A stretch of 64,000 bases of DNA. Origin: Gigantopelta aegis (Eukaryota; Mollusca; Gastropoda; Neomphalida; Peltospiridae). The stretch lies in NCBI RefSeq assembly GCF_016097555.1, contig NC_054703.1:33881954-33945953 (forward strand), in the 5' to 3' direction. The first letter of the stretch is position 1, and each line of letters begins with the position of its first letter. The position numbers were made by a program, and so were the translations under genes. Below are positions 1,348-63,135 of the stretch, piece by piece. The notes beneath the pieces were generated by a model. The model saw nothing but the letters and a program-made list of their open reading frames with translations, searched no databases and was not told the DNA's origin.

Positions 1348-1439
1348 ATGGTATAAAGAGACAACACAAACATTAGTTAAAAATGACTGTATTTCTGCTT
1401 TACATGTTGGTAAAAACAATGATAATATATATCATACTA

Positions 1440-1765
1440 CAGTGAGACTGTATCTTTAAATCTTTAACATGGTTTTTTTTTCAGGTCATACTACGGTGAG
1501 ACTGTATCTAAATCTTTAACATGTTTTTGTTTTCAGATCATACTACAGTGAGACTGTATCTTTAAATCTTGAACATGTTTTTTTTCTCAGGTCATACTAT
1601 GGTGAGACTGTATCTTTAAATCTTTAACATGTTTTTTTTTCTCAGGTCATACTATAGTGAGACTGTATCTTTAAAAAGTTTTTTTCTCAGGTCATACTAT
1701 GGTGACACTGTATCTTTAACATGGGGGGTTTTCCAGTCATACTATGGTGAGACTGTATCTTTAAT
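1440..1765 (+). repeat. Minisatellite of splice-acceptor-like units
   Basis: About six units of 50-59 bp. Each has a T-rich tract ending in TTTTCTCAG or TTTTCAG, then GTCATACTA(C/T)GGTGAGACT. Every unit carries a convincing polypyrimidine tract plus AG. Two more copies lie at 2160-2300, and the last T-tract ends in the acceptor of the exon at 2301, so the family seems derived from that acceptor. Confidence 0.85.
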
Positions 1766-2000
1766 TATTATCCATATAGTTCAACATAACCGAGTTAATA
1801 ATCATACGAAGCACACATGTAATAACAAGTGTAATGACGTAATTTTGGGAAGCGACGACATAACACGACGTTGTTTCTCCAGTCGTAGCTCAGACTCTGC
1901 ATTTGAAATATCATTTCGTTGTCTCCTAGTTGTGGCTGAAACATTTTGAGTTGGGTCTTGTTATTCATAAAGAAAACAACAATAATAATATGAATAATAA

Positions 2001-2150
2001 AGAAATTATTACACTCGCGTGTGAGTCGTACTGATTTTATGAAACACGTGTCAGGATTCATGTATTACCCTTGTTCTCGCTCGGGCAGTACCAAAATCCT
2101 GAGACTCGTTTCGTAAAATCAGTACGACACACAAGCTCGTATAATAATCT
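2001..2150. mobile_element. Palindromic MITE-like hairpin, 150 bp (copy 1 of 3)
   Basis: The arms (left AGAAATTATTACACTCG, right end ATAATAATCT) pair over about 60 bp and include GTCGTACTGATTTTA and TAAAATCAGTACGAC. The apex reads CCCTTGTTCTCGCTCGGG. The same apex and architecture occur at 28654-28810 and, with reverse-strand features, at 52655-52804. Confidence 0.8.
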
Positions 2151-2159
2151 CTATATCTT

Positions 2160-2300
2160 TAACATATTTGTTTTGTTGGTTTTTTTCCAGGTCATACTAC
2201 GGTGAAACTGTATCTTTAAGTCTTTACCATGTTTTTGTTTTTCAGGTCATACTACAGTGAAACCGTATCTTTAAATCTTTAACCTTTGTTTTTTCCCCAG
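2160..2300 (+). repeat. Two further acceptor-like units abutting the exon
   Basis: Two copies of the acceptor-like unit (GTCATACTAC..GTATCTTTAA..TTTTTCAG) run straight into the genuine acceptor TTTTTTCCCCAG at 2300. They are separated from the main array at 1440-1765 by the hairpin element and flanking sequence. Confidence 0.8.
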
Positions 2301-2605
2301 GTGTGATTGACTTTAAAGTCCCTGATGGCCGGGCCCACTTGACGGAGAAGACGATAGCGGCGCTGAGATACCTGTACACGAACCACCTCAGTGGCTACGA
2401 CTGGTTCCTCAAGGCTGACGACGATGTCTACATTATCATGGAGAACCTCAAGTATCTGTTGTCGCACTACAACCACCGGGAGCCAGTCTATCTGGGACAC
2501 CTCTTCAAGAAGTACAGCAAGTGGGGGTACATGTCGGGTGGCGCCAGTTACCTCCTCAGTCGGGAAGCCCTCAGGATGGTTGTCGAGAAAGGTTACAATG
2601 TTCAG
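2301..2605 (+). CDS. C1GALT1: C1GALT1-like core-1 beta1,3-galactosyltransferase, internal exon
   Basis: GT31 glycosyltransferase of the Golgi lumen that adds galactose beta1,3 to Ser/Thr-linked GalNAc (core 1, T antigen). The exon opens after TTTTCCCCAG, with two bases finishing a split codon, and encodes 101 residues up to the donor CAG|GTAGGT. Visible family motifs are VIDFKVPDGRAHL, the acidic DxD-type motif in YDWFLKADDDVYIIMENL (nucleotide-sugar and Mn2+ binding), PVYLGH, and the GGASYLLSREALR acceptor-region motif. The N-terminal membrane anchor and stem must lie on exons upstream of the window. The exon phase joins the exon at 7385 without a frameshift. Degenerate copies of its 3' third follow in the intron. 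Confidence 0.93.
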
Positions 2606-3470
2606 GTAGGTAGGTGTGCCTGGGGGGAGGGGGAGGAGGGAGGGAAGGGGAGACAACTCTTCACAAAGTACAGCAAGTGGAGGTACATGTCGGGGGGCGC
2701 CAGTTACCACCTCAGTCGGGAAGCTCTCAGGATGGTTGTCAACAAAGGTTACAATGTTGAGGTAGGTAGGTGTGCCTGGGGGAGGAGGAGGAGGGAGGGA
2801 AGGGGAGACATCTCTTCAAGAAGTACAGCAAGTGGGTGGTACTGGTCGGGGGTGGGTAGGTGAGCCTTGGTGAGGGGGTACCTTCTCATTTGGGATGCTC
2901 TCAGGATGGTTGTCGAGAAAGGTTACAATGTTGAGGTAGGTAGGCATACCTGGGGGGGAGGGGGATGGGGGTACCTTCTCAATCGGGATGCTCTCAGGAT
3001 GGTTGTCGAGAAAGGTTACAATGTTGAGGTAGGTACGTGTGCCTGGGGGGAGAGGGAGGAGGTACCTACTCAATCGGGATGGTTGTTGAGAAAGGTTACA
3101 ATGTTGAGGTAGGTAGGTACGTGTCCCTGGGGGGGGGGGGAAGCGGGGAGGGCAGACAACTCTTAGAGGACAGCAAGTAGGGGTACATAGGGGAGTGTGG
3201 AGCCAGTTACATACTCAGTCAGAAGGCTCTCAACATGGTTGTCGAGAAAGGTTACAATGTTCAGGTAGGTAGGCTTGCCAGGGGGAAGTGGGGAGGGGGA
3301 GGGAGACATCTCTTCAAGAAATACAGCAAGTGGGGATTCTTGTCAGAGGTGAAGGGTGTGGTGGGGGGGGGTACCTCCTAATTCTGGAAGCTCTCAGGTT
3401 GCCAAGAAAGGTTACAATGTTACGTGCACCTGGGGAAGGGGAGACAACTCTTCTAGAGGTACAGTAAGTA
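2606..3470 (+). repeat. Tandem degenerate copies of the C1GALT1 exon 3' end plus donor
   Basis: Sequence matching the last 30-100 bp of the preceding exon, together with its donor, recurs near 2655-2765, 2820-2935, 2975-3030, 3065-3110, 3165-3265 and 3310-3420. Each copy has the phrase TCAGGATGGTTGTCGAGAAAG or a variant and most end in GTTGAG or GTTCAG followed by GTAGGTAGG. G-rich spacers (GCCTGGGGGGAG) separate them. Copies contain frameshifts and deletions, so they are unlikely to be alternative exons. Confidence 0.88.
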
Positions 3471-7384: not shown

Positions 7385-7576
7385 GGCAAGTGTGCGAAGA
7401 CCGGAACGGACGAAGACGTGGAACTAGGTCATTGTCTTCACGCGGTGGGGATCACAGTGCATGACACGCGTGACCAGTTCAACCGCGAAACCTTCCACCC
7501 GTTTAGTGCGAGTAACCACATCATTGGACCCATCCCTAATGGACTGCCGGACTGGGATAGACATCCAACCAGAGTG
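7385..7576 (+). CDS. C1GALT1: C1GALT1-like galactosyltransferase, internal exon
   Basis: Acceptor GTCGCTACAG at 7384. The exon reads GKCAKTGTDEDVELGHCL, then AVGITVHDTRDQFNRETFHP, matching the GT31 core-1 region with the conserved E/D-D-V-E-[LM]-G-x-C motif near the catalytic base and the RxxFHPF motif. It joins phase 0 to phase 0 with the exons on both sides. The likely 3' end is GTG|GTTTGT at 7576, which gives 64 codons ending GLPDWDRHPTRV. The family usually continues with a Tyr-rich stretch after LPDW, so the last few codons look replaced. The donor sits inside the first unit of a 29-bp minisatellite that repeats the same bases, making the exact boundary uncertain. Confidence 0.9.
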
Positions 7577-8715
7577 GTTTGTAACACTTTTAGACAGCCG
7601 GAGTGGTTTGTAACACTTTTAGACAGCCGGAGTGGTTTGTAACACTTTTAGACAGCCAGAGTGGTTTGTAACACTTTTAGACAGCCGGAGTGGTTTGTAA
7701 CACTTTTAGACAGCCGGAGTGGTTTGTAACACTTTTAGACAGCCAGAGTGGTTTGTAACACTTTTAGACAGCCAGAGTGGTTTGTATCACCTTTAGACAG
7801 TGGTTTGTATCACTTTTAGATGGCCAGGGTGGTTTGTAACACCTTTAGACAGTGGTTTGTAATACTTTTAGATGGCCAGGGTGGTTTGTAACACCTTTAG
7901 ACAGTGGTTTGTAATACTTTTAGATGGCCAGGGTGGTTTGTAACACCTTTAGACAGAGTGGTTTGTAATACTTTTAGATAGCCTTGGTGATTTGTAATAC
8001 TTTTAGACAGCTGGAGTGGTTTGTAACACTTTTAGACGGCCGGAGTGGTTTGTAACACTTTTAGACAGCCAGAGTGGTTTGTAACACTTTTAGACAGCCG
8101 GAGTGGTTTGTAACACTTTTAGACAGCCGGAGTGGTTTGTAACACTTTTAGACAGCCGGAGTGGTTTGTAACACTTTTAGACAGCCAGAGTGGTTTGTAA
8201 CACCTTTAGACAGTGATTTGTAATACTTTTAGATGGCCAGGGTGGTTTGTAACACCTTTAGACAGAATGGTTTGTAATACTTTTAGACAGCCTTGGTGGT
8301 TTGTAACACTTTTAGACGGCCGGAGTGGTTTGTAACACTTTTAGATGGCCGGAGTGGTTTGTAACACCTTTAGACAGTGGTTTGTAATACTTTTAGATGG
8401 CCAGGGTGGTTTGTAATACTTTTAGACAGCCAGTGGTTTGTATCACCTTTAGACAGTGGTTTGTATCACTTTTAGATGGCCAGGGTGGTTTGTAACACCT
8501 TTAGACAGTGGTTTGTAATACTTTTAGATGGCCAGGGTGGTTTGTATCACCTTTAGACAGTGGTTTGTAATACTTTTAGACGGCCAGGGTGGTTTGTAAC
8601 ACCTTTAGACAGAGTGGTTTGTAACACTTTTAGATAGCCTTGGTGGTTTGTAATACTTTTAGACATCCAGGGTGGTTTGTAACACTTGTACACAGCCATA
8701 GTGGTGTGTAACAGT
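7577..8715 (+). repeat. 29-bp minisatellite grown from the exon donor site
   Basis: About 39 units of roughly 29 bp (GTGGTTTGTAACACTTTTAG then ACAGCCGGA), with shorter variants lacking CCGGA and variants ATGGCCAGG or TATCACC. Every unit reproduces the last bases of the preceding exon plus its donor (GAGTG|GTTTGT) and also contains TTTTAGACAG, which resembles a weak acceptor. Confidence 0.95.
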
Positions 8716-37870: not shown

Positions 37871-40800
37871 CTATGAGCCGGAGGGCTTGAAAGTATTCAT
37901 AATATGTTTACAAAATATTGCAAGTTTTCGGAGGACACCAGTTTTTTTTACAATTAAATAATTCGTGAAATTTATATGTGTTTGGTTTGGATCGATAATA
38001 TTTCGGTATATATTGAAGTCTGAATTGGTTGAAATATGGGCATGTAAAAATATAATGGAATTCATCTCCGATGTCGTTAGTGTTGCATAAAAAACACAAT
38101 CTATCATGTAATGGTTTACGTATCCATCTACCTGTCTCTATTGGAAGATTGTGGTTTGATACTCTAAAACGTAACAATGGGCACCAAATGTTTTTTTTCT
38201 AATAAATTTAAATAATTTTCGAATGCTATACTGCTTTTAAATATTTTGTAACAAGATGCTTTCGATGAAGTGTCAATATGACTGTACCATGTTTGCAAAA
38301 ATTGATCTATGAGTTTTGTTGAAATAAACATTTTCAACAATGAAGCACTATTAATACGCTCACAATGTGACCACCATATGTATGTGCAACCAATATTATC
38401 TAAAATTGATTTTATAAAAGCTATCCATTTGTGATCATAAAAATGTGTATTATAATCATTCAATAACATTCTGTACACTAATAATGATAGCTTGGACTGC
38501 TTCCCAGTAATCATCCTAAACCAAAATCCTATCATTCTTATTTTTACTGTTATATCTACCGGGAAGCATCCAAGTTCTCCATACAACATATATAATGGGG
38601 TGGATTTTCTAACAGGCAATAATAACTTTAAATATTTGCTATACAATTTTTCTATGCAGGACAGACTTTCAAAACCCCAAATTTCACATCCGTATAAAGC
38701 AATAGGTAAAACCATACAATCGAATAATTTAAGTTGGCATTGAATGGAAAGATGGCAACGTTTTCCTTGTCTAAGTGTAAAATACATAGCTTTTTGAGCT
38801 TGATCATATTGATGTTTTCGAGCATTAGTGAATTTATTGGATTTATGAAATATAATTCCAAGATATTTGTATATTTCTACATTATCTAGATTTGTGTTTC
38901 CTAAATGGAACCTTTTGGAATAATCTTTTTTATTACCACTGAAAATTAGCACTTTTGTTTTTTTACAATTTACATTTAGTTTCCATTTTGTACAATAAGA
39001 GTCGAAAATATTTAATAAATTCTGCATGTCGTCATAATTTTCGGCAAAGAGCGCTGTGTCATCAGCATATAGTAACACAAAAAGAACAATATTTGTATAC
39101 AAAGTGGAATCTGTGAATAAGTTATCTATGCGGATGCCATTACAATCATTAGTTTTAAACGTATCCTCTAAATCATTGAGAAACATGGAGAATAATAGGG
39201 GCGATAAATTTTCTCCCTGTCTAACACCCATGGAACATTGAAAATAATCCGACATTGTGTTATGTGCACTAATGCATGACTTAATGTTCTGATACATGCT
39301 ATATATTACTTTAAAACATTTACCATTAATACCATTTTGTATTAGTTTACCCCAAAGTCCTGTTCTCCATACTGAGTCGAATGCCTTGCTAAAATCTATA
39401 AAAGTACAATACAGTTTTTTCTTCCGTGCTTTTAACAATTCGATGAGTCCATATAATGTAAAAATATGATCGTTCGTCGGGTACTCCTTCCTGAATCCGG
39501 CTTGAACTTCAGATAACAAATCATTAGTTTCTAAATATAATTTCAGTCTATTATTTAAAACAGCTGTAAACAGTTTCCCGAGACAACTAAGTAAAGTAAT
39601 AGGTCTATAATTTTCTGGAACAGTTCTATCGCCACATTTATAGATCGGTTTGATTATGCCAACTAGCCACGAATCAGGAAAGATGCCATGTTCTAAACAC
39701 TAAATTAAAGAGCTTAACATACACAGGGACCATACAGCCGATAGTTTGCTTAATATACTCGTTGATTATTTGGTCTATTCCGCAGGCTTTATTGTTTTTT
39801 AGATTTTTAACAACGGCGAGTATTTCTTCTTGTAATATTGATTCATTTAGCATGGTAGTGTCCTCAAAATCTATATTAAAACTTGGATCTTTTTCTTCTG
39901 TTGTGTTGTCATCACTGCTGTTTATATTTTTAAAGTAATCGTACAGAGTGTCTAAAGGGGGGGAGAGTAGGGTCTTGTTTTTCTTTTAACAGTTTCCAAA
40001 AGGCGTGGGTATCATGTTGACTAAGTTCTGTGAGTCTTTGTTCTGTCTTCCAATTGTGTTTGTTAACATATTTCCGTATTACATTTCTGTAGCTTTTACT
40101 GGCATTCAAAAGTCGTTGCTTATTATCAGGTGTTTTTCGTTGTTTGTATGCTGATCTCGCTTCTGTATACTTTCTTCTTAGTGTTCTGCAATGATTTCCA
40201 AACCATGCTTTGTTACGGGTATTTTCACGCTTGTGTCTGGCTCTGACGCGGGCTTGCGTGTAACCAAAAGTGTCGGCTGCGGTGTCAACAAATAGGGTAC
40301 CAATACGCTCCACTGCACCATTCAGCTTTTCTTTCGAGAAGTGTTCACACAGTTCATTTAATATTACGTTTATGTCGTTGACTGTTTCTTTGTTTATATT
40401 TTCACTATAGTGTTTAGCCTCTTTAGTATTCCATTTCCTTGGGGTGAGTTCATTATTAATGACGGCGTGGTGTTTACCACTAGCTGTATGGATATTCAGT
40501 CGCATTGTTAATGGATTGTGAATGTCCGAGAATAGTGGTTCGAATTCGTTGACCTTGAATTTAAGAATTATTTCCAAAACTGTGAATGAGGCTATGGCAT
40601 AATCTATTACACTCGATCCTTTGCAAGTAGGTTGTCCTATACCCCGATCTTCGCCGACTCTTCCGTTCACTAAATACAAATTACTATTTTTACAAAGATC
40701 AATTAGTTTATATCCGTGACCGTTAGGTCTACTGGTATCTTGATTCGCTCTTTGTAATGGAATGCCAATATTTAATAAGTTGTTAGGTTCATTCATAAAA

Positions 40801-51122: not shown

Positions 51123-51266
51123 CACCATGGGTGCAACAAGCAGCAGCCTGTCAGAGCTGGCCAGCAATGATTACCTGAAGAGACTGTCGGGAACTGAACC
51201 CATCAACCCCATGGACCCGTACTGGAACCAGTTGCTGTCCTTCTCCTTCCTTATTCCAGTCAACAG
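51123..51266 (+). CDS. DYM: Dymeclin, first coding exon
   Basis: Acceptor TTTATTATTTCAG at 51122, four untranslated bases, then ATG at 51127. A 5' non-coding exon must therefore lie upstream. It encodes MGATSSSLSELASNDYLKRL, then SGTEPINPMDPYWNQLLSFS, then FLIPVNS, typical of the dymeclin N-terminus. Gly2 with Ser at position 6 fits the N-myristoylation signal reported for dymeclin. Dymeclin is a conserved helical protein that associates with the Golgi and endosomes and is needed for normal secretion. The donor is CAACAG|GTAAAC; the exon ends two bases into a Ser codon. Several degenerate copies of its 3' end follow in the intron. Confidence 0.95.
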
Positions 51267-51560
51267 GTAAACATTCAGTACAGTCTAGATACTGGAACCA
51301 GCTTATTTCCTTATTCCAGTCACCAGGTAAACATCCAACTGGTACTGTGTATGTACTGGAAGTAGCTCTTCTTATTTCTTATTCCAGTCAACAAACATAT
51401 TCAGTAAAGTGTACATACTGGAACTAGCTTATTTCCTTATTCCAGTCAACAGATAGATATTCATTACAGGGTACATACTGGAACTAGGTTATCTCTGTAT
51501 GAATTCCAGTCAACAGGTAAAAATTCATGACAACATAAATGTTCCTTAGTCCAGTCAATG
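51267..51560 (+). repeat. 63-bp copies of DYM exon 1 end plus donor
   Basis: The segment TACTGGAACCAG .. TTCCTTATTCCAGTCAACAG|GTAAACATTC, covering about 45 exon bases and the donor, recurs starting near 51290, 51354, 51417 and 51478, with a partial copy at 51541. Two copies keep an intact GTAAA donor; two have lost it (CAACAAACAT, CAACAGATAG). Confidence 0.93.
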
Positions 51561-55395: not shown

Positions 55396-55406
55396 GTGAG
55401 TAATAT

Positions 55407-58400
55407 ATCAGGGCTTTTAGATTATGGTAGCCCCACTCCCATAGCTGGTGATATTCAGTGTTGGGCTAGTAAATAACTACTATGGCCATGCCTGATGGCT
55501 AGCAGAGCTTCTAGATTATGGTAGCCCCACTCCCATGGCTAGTGATATTCAGTGTTGGGCTAGTAAATAACTACTATTGCCATGCCTGACGGGGCTTCTG
55601 GATTATGGTAGCCCCACTCCCATAGCTGGTGATATTCAGTGTTGGGCTAGTAAATAACTACTATTGCCACGCCTGACGGGGCTTCTGGATTATGGTAGCC
55701 CCATTCCCATAGCTAGTGATATTCAGTGTTGGGCTAGTAAATAACTACTATTGCCATGCCTGACGGGGCTTCTGGATTATGGTAGCCCCATTCCCATAGC
55801 TGGTGATATTCAGTGTTGGGCTAGTAAATAACTACTATTGCCATGCCTGAGGGGGCTTCTGGATTATGGTAACCCCATTCCCATAGCTAGTGATATTCAG
55901 TGTTGGGCTAGTAAATAACTACTATTGCCATGCCTGACGGGGCTTCTGGATTATGGTAGCCCCATTCCCATAGCTGGTGATATTTAATGTTTGGCTAGTA
56001 AATAACTACTATTGCCATGCCTGACGGGGCTTCTGGATTATGGTAGCCCCATTCCCATAGCTGGTGATATTCAGTGTTGGGCTAGTAAATAACTACTGTT
56101 GTCATGTCTGACGGGGCTTCTGGATTATGGTAGCCCCATTCCCATAGCTGGTGATATTCAGTGTTGGGCTAGTAAATAACTACTATTGCCATGCCTGACG
56201 GGGCTTCTGGATTATGGTAGCCCCATTCCCATAGCTAGTGATATTCAGTGTTGGGCTAGTAAATAACTACTATTGCCATGCCTGAGGGCGCTTCTGGATT
56301 ATGGTAACCCCATTCCCATAGCTAGTGATATTCAGTGTTGGGCTAGTAAATAACTACTATTGCCATGCCTGACGGGGCTTCTGGATTATGGTAGCCCCAT
56401 TCCCATAGCTGGTGATATTTAATGTTTGGCTAGTAAATAACTACTATTGCCATGCCTGACGGGGCTTCTGGATTATGGTAGCCCCATTCCCATAGCTAGT
56501 GATATTCAGTGTTGGGCTAGTAAATAACTACTGTTGTCATGTCTGACGGGGCTTCTGGATTATGGTAGCCCCATTCCCATAGCTGGTGATATTCAGTGTT
56601 GGGCTAGTAAATAACTACTATTGCCATGCCTGACGGGGCTTCTGGATTATGGTAGCCCCATTCCCATAGCTGGTGATATTTAATGTTTGGCTAGTAAATA
56701 ACTACTATTGCCATGCCTGACGGGGCTTCTGGATTATGGTAGCCCCATTCCCATAGCTGGTGATATTCAGTGTTGGGCTAGTAAATAACTACTGTTGTCA
56801 TGTCTGACGGGGCTTCTGGATTATGGTAGCCCCATTCCCATAGCTGGTGATATTCAGTGTTGGGCTAGTAAATAACTACTATTGCCATGCCTGACGGGGC
56901 TTCTGGATTATGGTAGCCCCATTCCCATAGCTAGTGATATTCAGTGTTGGGCTAGTAAATAACTACTATTGCCATGCCTGAGGGCGCTTCTGGATTATGG
57001 TAACCCCATTCCCATAGCTAGTGATATTCAGTGTTGGGCTAGTAAATAACTACTATTGCCATGCCTGACGGGGCTTCTGGATTATGGTAGCCCCATTCCC
57101 ATAGCTAGTGATATTCAGTGTTGGGCTAGTAAATAACTACTATTGCCATGCCTGAGGGCGCTTCTGGATTATGGTAACCCCATTCCCATAGCTAGTGATA
57201 TTCAGTGTTGGGCTAGTAAATAACTACTATTGCCATGCCTGACGGGGCTTCTGGATTATGGTAGCCCCATTCCCATAGCTGGTGATATTTAATGTTTGGC
57301 TAGTAAATAACTACTATTGCCATGCCTGACGGGGCTTCTGGATTATGGTAGCCCCATTCCCATAGCTAGTGATATTCAGTGTTGGGCTAGTAAATAACTA
57401 CTGTTGTCATGTCTGACGGGGCTTCTGGATTATGGTAGCCCCATTCCCATAGCTGGTGATATTCAGTGTTGGGCTAGTAAATAACTACTATTGCCATGCC
57501 TGACGGGGCTTCTGGATTATGGTAGCCCCATTCCCATAGCTAGTGATATTCAGTGTTGGGCTAGTAAATAACTACTATTGCCATGCCTGACGGGGCTTCT
57601 GGATTATGGTAGCCCCATTCCCATAGCTGGTGATATTTAATGTTTGGCTAGTAAATAACTACTATTGCCATGCCTGACGGGGCTTCTGGATTATGGTAGC
57701 CCCATTCCCATAGCTGGTGATATTCAGTGTTGGGCTAGTAAATAACTACTGTTGTCATGTCTGACGGGGCTTCTGGATTATGGTAGCCCCATTCCCATAG
57801 CTGGTGATATTCAGTGTTGGGCTAGTAAATAACTACTATTGCCATGCCTGACGGGGCTTCTGGATTATGGTAGCCCCATTCCCATAGCTAGTGATATTCA
57901 GTGTTGGGCTAGTAAATAACTACTATTGCCATGCCTGAGGGCGCTTCTGGATTATGGTAACCCCATTCCCATAGCTAGTGATATTCAGTGTTGGGCTAGT
58001 AAATAACTACTATTGCCATGCCTGACGGGGCTTCTGGATTATGGTAGCCCCATTCCCATAGCTAGTGATATTCAGTGTTGGGCTAGTAAATAACTACTAT
58101 TGCCATGCCTGAGGGCGCTTCTGGATTATGGTAACCCCATTCCCATAGCTAGTGATATTCAGTGTTGGGCTAGTAAATAACTACTATTGCCATGCCTGAC
58201 GGGGCTTCTGGATTATGGTAGCCCCATTCCCATAGCTGGTGATATTTAATGTTTGGCTAGTAAATAACTACTATTGCCATGCCTGACGGGGCTTCTGGAT
58301 TATGGTAGCCCCATTCCCATAGCTAGTGATATTCAGTGTTGGGCTAGTAAATAACTACTGTTGTCATGTCTGACGGGGCTTCTGGATTATGGTAGCCCCA

Positions 58401-59090
58401 TTCCCATAGCTGGTGATATTCAGTGTTGGGCTAGTAAATAACTACTATTGCCATGCCTGACGGGGCTTCTGGATTATGGTAGCCCCATTCCCATAGCTAG
58501 TGATATTCAGTGTTGGGCTAGTAAATAACTACTATTGCCATGCCTGACGGGGCTTCTGGATTATGGTAGCCCCATTCCCATAGCTGGTGATATTCAGTGT
58601 TGGGCTAGTAAATAACTACTATTGCCATGCCTGACGGGGCTTCTGGATTATGGTAGCCCCATTCCCATGGCTAGTGATATTCAGTGTTGGGCTAGTAAAT
58701 AACTTCTCTTGCCATGCCTGACGGGGCTTCTGGATTATGGTAGCCCCATTCCCATAGCTGGTGATATTCAGTGTTGGGCTAGTAAATAACTACTATTGCC
58801 ATGCCTGACGGGGCTTCTGGATTATGGTAGCCCCATTCCCATGGCTAGTGATATTCAGTGTTGGGCTAGTAAATAACTACTATTGCCATGCCAGACGGGG
58901 CTTCTGGATTATGGTAGCCCCACTCCCATGGCTAGTGATATTCAGTGTTGGGCTAGTAAATAACTACTATTGCCATGCCCAACAGGGCTTCTAGATTATG
59001 GTAGCCCCACTTCCATGGCTAGTGATATTCAGTGTTGGACTAGTAAATAATTACTATTGCCATGCCCAACGGCTAGTGAATTGGTTTTGG
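55407..59090 (+). repeat. 87-bp satellite, about 42 copies, with higher-order structure
   Basis: The unit is GGGCTTCTGGATTATGGTAG, then CCCCATTCCCATAGCTGGTG, ATATTCAGTGTTGGGCTAGT, AAATAACTACTATTGCCATG and CCTGACG. It begins about a dozen bases after the exon 4 donor. Diagnostic variants (GAGGGCGC at 56284, 56980, 57154, 57937, 58111; ATTTAATG at 55982, 56417, 56678, 57287, 57635, 58244) are all spaced by exact multiples of 87. Pairs 957 bp (11 units) apart show an 11-unit higher-order repeat. Confidence 0.97.
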
Positions 59091-59723: not shown

Positions 59724-59849
59724 GAACTTCACATACGCGCTACACTTGGAGGCTCTCAACACGATTCTCACTCTGCTGTCAATCCAGATGTTTCAACCAC
59801 AGGCAACCAGCACCTTCACCATCTTCAGATTCATGATGCAGGGCAAGTG
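59724..59849 (+). CDS. DYM: Dymeclin exon 5
   Basis: Acceptor GTCTGTTTCTAG at 59723, donor CAAGTG|GTAAAT. It encodes NFTYALHLEALNTILTLLSI, then QMFQPQATSTFTIFRFMMQG. The HLEA-x-N-T motif is a dymeclin signature. It ends two bases into a Cys codon completed by exon 6 (TG|C). Confidence 0.94.
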
Positions 59850-60094
59850 GTAAATACCAGATTTATTACCCAGTCATGTGTGATATACAGCCTATATGTA
59901 CCATCTCATTCATAATGCAGGGAAAGTGGTAAATACTAGATTTATTACCCAGTCACATGTTATATACAGGTCATGTATAACATCTCATTCATGATGCAGT
60001 GCAAGTGGTAAATACCGGATTTTTTACCCAGTCACATGTTATATACAGTTCATGTATAATATCTCATTCATGATGCAGGGCAAGTGGTAAACAC
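59850..60094 (+). repeat. Copies of DYM exon 5 end plus donor
   Basis: Besides the genuine donor, TTCATGATGCAGGGCAAGTG|GTAAA-like sequence recurs with GT at 59939, 60008 and 60087, at 69-89 bp spacing. All three keep the GTAAA donor. The last copy passes without a spacer into the exon 6 acceptor array (ACACCTGTTGATAAAGGTGT). Confidence 0.94.
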
Positions 60095-61418
60095 CTGTTG
60101 ATAAAGGTGTTGCTATGGAACTACATAAACCAGAAAGTGTAAATGTTTTATTTGCAGTGCTATGCACGCCCCACTGTTGATGAAGGCATTGCTATGGAAC
60201 TACATCAACCAGAAAGTGTAAATGTTTTATTTGCAGTGCTATGCACGCCCCACTGTTGATGAAGGTGTTGCTATGGAACTACATCAACCAGAAAATGTAA
60301 ATGTTTTATTTGCAGTGCTATCCATGCCCCACTGTTGATGAAGACGTTGCTATGGAACTACATCAACCAGAAAGTGTAAATGTTTTATTTGCAATGCTAT
60401 CCATGCCCCACTGTTGATGAAGGCGTTGCTATGGAACTACATCAACCAGAAAGTGTAAATGTTTTATTTGCAGTGCTATGCACGCCCCACTGTTGATGAA
60501 GGTGTTGCTATGGAACTACATCAACCAGAAAATGTAAATGTTTTATTTGCAGTGCTATCCATGCCCCACTGTTGATGAAGACGTTGCTATGGAACTACAT
60601 CAACCAGAAAGTGTAAATGTTTTATTTGCAATGCTATCCATGCCCCACTGTTGATGAAGGCGTTGCTATGGAACTACATAACCCAGAAAGTGTAAATGTT
60701 TTATTTGCAGTGCTATGCACGCCCCACTGTTGATGAAGGTGTTGCTATGGAACTACATCAACCAGAAAATGTAAATGTGTTATTTGCAGTGCTATCCATG
60801 CCCCACTGTTGATGAAGACGTTGCTATGGAACTACATCAACCAGAAAGTGTAAATGTTTTATTTGCAATGCTATCCATGCCCCACTGTTGATGAAGGCGT
60901 TGCTATGGAACTACATAAACCAGAAAGTATTATGTTTTATTTGCAGCGCTATCCACGCCCCACTGTTGATGAAGGTGTTGCTATGGAACTACATCAACCA
61001 GAAAGTGTAAATGTTTTATTTGCAATGCTATCCACGCCCCACTGTTGATGAAGGCATTGCTATGGAACTACATCAACCAGAAAGTGTAAATGTTTTATTT
61101 TCAGTGCTATCCATGCCCCACTGTTGATGAAGGCGTTGCTATGGAACTACATAAACCAGAAAGTATTATGTTTTATTTGCAGCGCTATCCACGCCCCACT
61201 GTTGATGAAGGTGTTGCTATGGAACTACATCAACCAGAAAATGTAAATGTTTTATTTGCAGTGCTATCCATGCCCCACTGTTGATGAAGACGTTGCTATG
61301 GAACTACATCAACCAGAAAGTGTAAATGTTTTATTTGCAATGCTATCCATGCCCCACTGTTGATGAAGGCGTTGCTATGGAACTACATAAACCAGAAAGT
61401 ATTATGTTTTATTTGCAG
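60095..61418 (+). repeat. 79-bp array of decoy splice acceptors plus exon 6 5' end
   Basis: Each unit has TAAATGTTTTATTTGCAG, then GCTATGCACGCCCCACTG and TTGATGAAGGCGTTGCTATG, up to AACCAGAAAG: a full acceptor plus about 55 bp of the exon 6 start. Exon-like starts occur at 60158, 60237, 60316 and onward every 78-79 bp, giving about 16 decoys before the genuine start at 61419. The variant TATTATG recurs every 236 bp (three units), a small higher-order repeat. Confidence 0.96.
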
Positions 61419-61552
61419 CGCTATCCACGCCCCACTGTTGATGAAGGCGTTGCTATGGAACTACATAAACCAGGAGAAGATTCCTCCGGAACTCTACAAA
61501 GGAACGTCGGAGAGCAGCAGTATGTTGTACGACATGACCGCCGCTGTCGCAT
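61419..61552 (+). CDS. DYM: Dymeclin exon 6
   Basis: The last acceptor of the array (TTTTATTTGCAG at 61418) is the only one followed by a full exon. It encodes AIHAPLLMKALLWNYINQEK, then IPPELYKGTSESSSMLYDMT, then AAVA, to the donor CGCAT|GTACGC. This matches the dymeclin region with L-L-x-N-(F/Y)-I-x-Q-E-K-x-P-P. The diagnostic stretch past ACCAG (GAGAAGATTCCTCCGG) is absent from all decoys, which read ACCAGAAAGTGTAAAT instead. Confidence 0.9.
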
Positions 61553-61603
61553 GTACGCAGTGTTTACAACGTTTACATCAATTTTGTTTTCTAGCCATTG
61601 TGG

Positions 61604-61918
61604 GGTGGGGTGGGACGTAGTTCAGTGGTACAGCACTTGCCTGATGTGCGATCCATCGGTGGGCCCATTGGGCTATTTCTCCTTCTAGCCAGTGCTCCAC
61701 AACTGGTGTAACAAAGGCCATGGTATGTACTATCCTGGTTGTGGAATTGTGCATATAAAAGATCCCTTGCTGCTAATCGAAAAGAGTAGTCCATGAAGTG
61801 GCAACAGCGGGTTTCCTCTCTCAATATCTATGTGGTCCTGAACCATATGTCCAATGCCATACAACCGTAAATAAAATGTGTGAGTGCGTCATTAAATAAA
61901 ACATTTCCTTATTTCCTT
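61604..61918 (+). mobile_element. SINE (head B, tail 1) in DYM intron 6
   Basis: GGGACGTAGTTCAGTGGTAC head, a gap in the B-box region (GATGTGCGATCCATCGG), core AAAGATCCCTTGCTGCTAAT, and tail GCGTCATTAAATAAAACATT. Confidence 0.93.
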
Positions 61919-61947
61919 CTTGTAGCCGTGGTGGTGGTGGGGGTGGG

Positions 61948-62268
61948 GGGGTGGGGCGGGCCGTAGCCGAGTGATAAAGCGCTCACTTGATGCACAGTCG
62001 GCCCAGGATCGATCCACGTCGGTGGGCCCATTGGGCTATTTCTCGTCCCAGCCAGTTCACCATGACTGATATATCAAAGGCCGTGGTATGTGCTATCCTG
62101 TCTGTTGGATGGTGCATATAAAAGATCCCTTGCTATTAACAGAAAAATGTAGTGGGTTTCCTCTCTTAATACTATACGTCAGAATTACCAAATGTTTGAC
62201 ATCGATATAGCCGATGATTAATAAATCAATGTGCTCTAGTGGTGTCATTAAACAAAACACAACTTCTT
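61948..62268 (+). mobile_element. SINE (head B, tail 2) in DYM intron 6
   Basis: GGCGGGCCGTAGCCGAGTGA head, CGGCCCAGGATCGATCCACG, core, and tail GTGCTCTAGTGGTGTCATTA. Confidence 0.93.
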
Positions 62269-62400
62269 CTAGCCCAGGGGGCAGGTTCAAATTCAGTGAT
62301 AAAAATGACGGCTGCTTTCGCATGTACGTAGTGTTTACAATGGTTATGTCTTCTAGCCCAGGGGTGCGGGATCTGGCTCATTGATAACAGTGTTCGACAA
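62269..62400 (+). repeat. Copy of DYM exon 6 donor region
   Basis: AAATGACGGCTGCTTTCGCAT|GTACGTAGTGTTTACAA (GT at 62324) matches the exon 6 end and donor at 61536-61575. TTCTAGCCCAGGGG occurs before and after it (62270, 62351). The two SINEs above therefore appear to have inserted into a duplicated donor segment. Confidence 0.82.
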
Positions 62401-62836: not shown

Positions 62837-63025
62837 CCAGCTTCTGGTCTGTGGTGACCTTGGGAATGGGAAGCAAACCAAAGCCAGTAGAAGAAGATTT
62901 CTCTGACACACTGCTGGCCAATCAGAGCCTTCTTCTCATACTGGTGCTGACCAATCACTGCACGAGTGACAGAGGTTTCAACAACCCCTACAGACAAGCT
63001 CTCTTCTCCTTCACAGATTCCCAAG
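62837..63025 (+). CDS. DYM: Dymeclin exon 7
   Basis: Acceptor TTTGTGTTGACAG at 62836, donor CCCAAG|GTACGT. It encodes SFWSVVTLGMGSKPKPVEED, then FSDTLLANQSLLLILVLTNH, then CTSDRGFNNPYRQALFSFTD. It includes the dymeclin L-A-N-x-S-L-L-L-x-L-V-L and N-P-Y-R motifs. Confidence 0.94.
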
Positions 63026-63135
63026 GTACGTAACTCTTATTTTTTTATATTCCTATTTTTTCTAATTGCATATTTCAAAACAGAATTTGTGTTCACATAT
63101 TCCCAAGGTAGGTAACTCTTACAGAGGAACGCTAC
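63026..63135 (+). repeat. Second copy of DYM exon 7 donor
   Basis: ACATATTCCCAAG|GTAGGTAACTCTTA (GT near 63110) repeats the genuine junction ACAGATTCCCAAG|GTACGTAACTCTTA about 85 bp downstream. Only about 13 exon bases are duplicated. Confidence 0.82.

Follow-up and report, generated by a model that had tools for sequence, protein, structure and literature searches.

How could an intron come to consist of nothing but copies of its own two splice junctions, and how could the genuine junctions still be chosen among them? This question is raised by intron 5 of the dymeclin gene in Gigantopelta aegis, a deep-sea hydrothermal vent snail of the Peltospiridae, as found in a 64,000-nucleotide stretch of chromosome C5 (C5:33881954-33945953; herein called the window, with positions counted from its first base). 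Analyzing the genomic sequence of one G. aegis assembly, we found that the whole of intron 5 is a tandem repetition of the two exon–intron junctions that bound it, with nothing else inside. The array is real and extreme in degree and belongs to a known kind of repeat. It probably represents two junction-spanning minisatellites that grew by exchange or slippage and were fused by a deletion, with the outermost sites being spliced and the copies carried along as near-neutral passengers.

Two junction arrays fill intron 5

The identity of the gene was clear, as a query of 174 residues from exons 5–8 had 100% identity over 98% of its length to the G. aegis dymeclin-like protein and matched the Pfam family Dymeclin with an E value of 3.4e-32. 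Intron 5 covers positions 59850-61418 (1,569 bp), with exon 5 ending at 59849 (CAAGTG/GTAAAT) and exon 6 starting at 61419 (TTTGCAG/CGCTAT), and the dymeclin protein found in the database has a plain in-frame join of the two exons. Tandem Repeats Finder (TRF) reported two arrays here, array A at 59829-60095 (period 79, 3.4 copies, 88% matches) and array B at 60095-61473 (period 79, 17.5 copies, 93% matches), the latter with a unit composed of 23-24 nt of the intron end followed by the first 55 nt of exon 6. In both arrays the unit thus combines an exon edge with the adjoining splice site, which is what defines a junction-spanning minisatellite. These arrays and the positions of the sites bear out the anatomy proposed in the initial annotation, namely copies of the exon 5 end with its donor followed by copies of the acceptor with the start of exon 6, as well as its statement that the two arrays adjoin without any unrelated sequence between them; the meeting point, placed there at about 60090, lies at about 60092-60096.

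The four similar donors that had been counted earlier were found at 59849 (genuine), 59928, 60007 and 60086, thus the genuine site and three decoys. There are also 17 acceptor positions as claimed, extending from 60157 to 61418, the last being the genuine one and the other 16 decoys, but AG is kept at only 12 of them, with five of the 16 decoys instead reading GCAA. In the same manner, the description of each decoy exon piece as running for about 58 nt to a GTGTAA donor holds for nine of the 16 units, whereas three have GTATTA at the inner site and four have lost the GT.

Because the B unit contains conserved dymeclin coding sequence, its origin from the exon is far beyond chance. When the B unit was searched against the genome, its 18 matches all fell within intron 5 and the start of exon 6, and on the plus strand of the window the A unit was likewise present at the intron 5 locus only. 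A common origin of the two units was considered and rejected, since their best circular match of 8 bases was no better than chance (equalled by 19% of 500 shuffles), and the circular alignment of the A and B units gave no support for the B linker being a remnant of a donor.

Growth of the arrays and choice of splice sites

The 16 full B units differ from one another by a few variants that occur in order, often in triplets, and show autocorrelation at 79, 158 and 236-237. Three of the units, at 60869, 61105 and 61341, are 78 bp long and have a linker that is common to these three and the genuine acceptor, and CGCTATCCACG opens the units following those at 60869 and 61105 as well as exon 6 itself, following the one at 61341. 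The pattern suggests that multi-unit steps may have taken in the genuine exon edge. Either unequal exchange or slippage would yield such a multi-unit pattern and we favor one of the two as the process; the replication slippage suggested in the initial annotation still stands as a reasonable guess, but slippage and unequal exchange are not separable here. The course of events was probably that a local tandem duplication arose across the exon 5 donor and a separate one across the exon 6 acceptor, that each array then expanded into the intron through unequal exchange or replication slippage, in the case of array B partly in steps of three units, and that a later deletion of the intervening intron sequence fused the two.

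Since the decoys are near-identical to the genuine sites, the latter are not singled out by sequence strength. Over six intron bases, two of the three decoy donors show the genuine sequence and the remaining one has a single difference, and among the 11 decoy acceptors that keep AG, nine match the 15 bases preceding the genuine exon. Both genuine sites remain the outermost ones of the arrays, and because only they border complete exons they would presumably stay in use through exon definition, in line with the strong preference for the distal junction copy in human CBS 844ins68 (PMC2630376). Of the 48 donor–acceptor combinations of AG-bearing sites, only the genuine one is open, the remaining 47 each running into an in-frame stop; decoy 61340 would yield an open insertion of 26 residues, but its AG is lost. 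As every other AG-bearing pairing meets a stop, mis-spliced forms would be expected to be cleared by nonsense-mediated decay, and with exon definition and such decay acting together the arrays would be near-neutral passengers.

Three points weigh against this explanation. The two arrays (59829-61473) have the same 79-bp period despite their unrelated units. The human OCT1 donor duplication, with alternative splicing in 38–52% of minigene transcripts (PMC8137991), indicates that decoys may be non-silent. Finally, stops in 47 of 47 wrong pairings could be taken as evidence for selection, although this evidence is weak because any reading through an intron is expected to meet stops and there is a TAA in both the linker and the donor.

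Intron 5 presents an extreme natural test of spliceosome choice, in which position and complete exons, and not local sequence, must decide. Even if the repeats are merely neutral, they illustrate how far junction duplication can reach while the annotated protein keeps its plain exon join.

Related repeats at other exon ends

Intron 5 is not an isolated case, as similar repeats were found at other exon ends of dymeclin and of the first gene in the window, which encodes the G. aegis C1GALT1-like protein (100% identity with 96% of the query aligned). Downstream of dymeclin exons 1, 6, 7, 8, 13 and 14 lie copies of the respective exon 3′ ends, and exon-end copies occur at both donors of the C1GALT1-like gene that lie within the window (Table 1). 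The C1GALT1-like acceptor at 2300 is preceded by 8 T-rich CAG sites. Just beyond the window, at C5:33945993-33947110, the end of dymeclin exon 8 with its donor is repeated in tandem about ten times at a period of 99, the copies being 97% alike, and through these copies (about 64040-65157 in window coordinates extended past the end) a frame stays open for 284 residues.

Table 1. Features of the dymeclin and C1GALT1-like genes in window coordinates.
Feature	Position	Strand	Description
Dymeclin exon 5	59724..59849	+	Matches P0001 residues 172-212 at 100%
Array A	59829..60094	+	79-bp copies: last 21 nt of exon 5, donor, 58 nt of intron
A/B fusion point	60092..60096	+	One or two bases at most common to both
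Array B	60095..61418	+	16 full copies of 78-79 bp and a partial one: acceptor and first 55 nt of exon 6
Dymeclin exon 6	61419..61552	+	Begins with the final, genuine copy of the B exon piece (55 nt)
Dymeclin exon 1 end and donor (51266)	51219..51532	+	Tandem copies, period 60
87-bp array	55406..59072	+	Starts 11 nt past exon 4 donor (55395), no visible exon piece
Dymeclin exon 6 end and donor (61534-61575)	61534..62346	+	Diverged copy at 62305-62346 (42 nt, 86%)
Dymeclin exon 7 end and donor (63010-63039)	63010..63121	+	Copy at 63092-63121 (30 nt, 93%)
C1GALT1-like exon end (2605) and donor	2496..3469	+	Diverged copies downstream
Acceptor-side repeats of same C1GALT1-like exon (acceptor 2300)	1431..2302	+	Copies end at junction
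29-bp array at next C1GALT1-like exon (donor 7576)	7566..8713	+	41.6 copies, from last ~10 nt of the exon

These findings raise the possibility of a mutational hotspot anchored at donors, where some process linked to the 5′ splice site, such as co-transcriptional structures, breaks or templated repair, would repeatedly seed duplications with intron 5 as one outcome. Such a hotspot, which would add a cause to the explanation preferred above, we consider conceivable but rather doubtful. In its favor, a local duplicate spans nine of 18 donors compared with two of 19 acceptors (Fisher P 0.013), one of the two acceptors, that of dymeclin exon 12, resting on a single 71% match. Within the dymeclin and C1GALT1-like stretch, repeat loci have their left edge at -110..+11 of 11 of the 16 plus-strand donors, with 1.0 expected, an interval that was chosen after the data had been seen and in a test made after the base-level and event-level nulls given below; the corresponding count for acceptors was 3/17, with 1.1 expected. 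For dymeclin donors alone, nine of 14 had a repeat edge (1.2 expected), or eight of 13 (1.0 expected) when donor 5 was omitted. Using circular shifts with symmetric intervals of 20, 50 and 110 nt, each under four filters, P values for donors were 0.0003-0.002 in all 12 settings and those for acceptors were below 0.05 in one of 12, the shifts preserving gene clustering and hence not being independent trials.

Other counts were less favorable. Because repeats cover much of the window, its junction coverage at the base level was not significant (seven of 23 junctions spanned, null mean 5.45, P 0.34), which weakens the wider interpretation; the weakness of the base-level enrichment is also seen in that a copy scoring at least 50 was present no farther than 1,500 bp from 23% of 1000 random window positions. 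The null at the level of events yielded P 0.002 (6 loci of 30), which rose to 0.011 on dropping one locus, to 0.025 on inflating the units and to 0.08 when both changes were made. The junction-coverage and duplicate-span counts, unlike the edge tests, include two donors and two acceptors on the minus strand that were placed by eye from homologues, none of which was spanned. They belong to a split LPMO_10 (chitin-binding type-4) gene at 20557-44127, located between the two plus-strand genes.

Outside the window, a local duplicate was found at two of 26 exon ends and two of 26 exon starts of CCT chaperonin genes. This sample consists of 26 of 46 rows, those excluded including small contigs, rows with stops and long single-stretch matches; splice sites were judged by GT or AG near the profile ends, so that some of the 26 ends are perhaps not donors, and most ends were examined with about 1 kb downstream. 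The exon-edge duplicates are located in three CCT stretches on other chromosomes, near local coordinates 1176-1640 and 875-1062 in one stretch, 236-509 in another and 2-116 in the third. None of the nine donors of C1GALT1 paralogues on C5 had a duplicate at the donor, but three of them are followed, some 60-80 nt into the intron, by the start of weak repeats that would be included if the interval were widened. The 11 of 16 donors compared with two of 35 CCT ends and paralogue donors taken together gave a Fisher P of 6e-6, to be read with the caveats that the first set was reached via the finding itself and that the criteria differ somewhat. Tandem arrays with a period of at least 15 numbered 2.5 per 10 kb, with 10% coverage, in 21 stretches of 10 kb picked by hand at places along C1-C14, and 3.0 per 10 kb, with 17% coverage, in the window. 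A six-frame Pfam scan of one stretch had a single family under E 0.01, SNU71_N (E 0.0033), and as this match was below its cut-off no gene was added.

Given the rarity of junction repeats at the CCT and paralogue sites and the repeat density of the other stretches, the cluster looks local. That rarity and the chance-level coverage within the window argue against a hotspot. Copies anchored in exons also remain recognisable for longer, and selection may simply remove duplications at acceptors. We suggest only tentatively that 5′ splice sites in this stretch are start points of tandem duplication and that introns grow from the donor end by minisatellite seeding. Intron 5, wholly taken by a donor-side and an acceptor-side array, may then perhaps be an end point of such donor-seeded growth and a natural competition assay, a notion we hold to be more doubtful than not. 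The cluster of donor-anchored repeats in one gene is what most merits counting across the genome; should such a count confirm it, splice junctions would be tied to the birth of minisatellites and the growth of introns.

Known junction repeats and remaining explanations

The initial annotation could name no mechanism that produces such an intron, but its kind is known from the junction-spanning repeats described for human CBS and OCT1, for duplicated human genes and for potato RdRp. The 31-bp variable number tandem repeat (VNTR) of CBS, c.1444_1467+7(16_21), lies at exon 13–intron 13 and spans the donor (PMC2630376, PMC1395315). It resembles the arrays studied here in having a junction-spanning tandem unit, 16–21 copies and single-base differences among units, but is confined to the donor side, has a shorter unit and, as far as described, does not take up a whole intron; it is also polymorphic in people, while the G. 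aegis arrays are known from one assembly. A second CBS variant, 844ins68, likewise duplicates an intron–exon (acceptor) junction, but as a single extra copy of 68 bp and not as an array, and there the distal copy is strongly preferred and the full exon kept (PMC2630376). In OCT1 the donor site is duplicated at exon 7–intron 7 with a unit of only 8 bp and one extra copy, and splicing, changed in the minigenes as given above, was changed in 0.3–0.6% in liver (PMC8137991). The new intron of potato RdRp also arose by tandem duplication across an intron–exon boundary, in that case a single duplication that created the intron (PMC4974935). Internal tandem repeats at exon–intron boundaries of human duplicated genes (segmental duplications) are similarly minisatellites able to shift intron structure, but with an average unit of 30 bp and about four copies (PMC2812944). 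Among gastropods, a minisatellite in intron 3 of an abalone TSSK1-like gene differs in copy number among individuals, its description not stating that it spans a junction (PMC6905558). Neither an intron composed only of two junction arrays nor donor-anchored repeats along one gene were found in the titles and abstract openings of the open-licence PubMed Central papers that the searches listed.

Some of these human precedents, having changed splicing or expression, could together with the near-identity of the decoys to the genuine sites be taken to favor a regulatory role, in which competing sites divert some of the transcripts to stop-bearing forms and thereby tune the dymeclin level, as was proposed for human junction repeats. 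We find this improbable, as the loss of AG in five of the 16 decoy acceptors and of the inner GT in four of the 16 units looks like decay. It is still less probable that repeats were collapsed or inflated into an assembly artefact. The assembly was made from PacBio subreads using Canu correction, with the best contigs taken from Canu and wtdbg2 (PMC7895826), and the copy number of the arrays could deviate from it; however, no corrected read was shorter than 8,000 (minReadLength 8000), against an intron of 1.6 kb, and the units have diagnostic variants in order. Least credible of all is insertion of a dispersed satellite or an introner-like element, both of which were rejected for the B unit since it consists of dymeclin's own coding sequence and the genome search found neither related copies nor arrays elsewhere, so that it is not an inserted satellite.

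Two minor observations may be added. Among the 21 comparison stretches, those from longer chromosomes tended to have lower tandem-repeat coverage (Spearman -0.55, P 0.01), several of the stretches sharing a chromosome and one containing 2,203 N. Within the window, a reverse transcriptase frame of 511 residues was present at 38167-39699.
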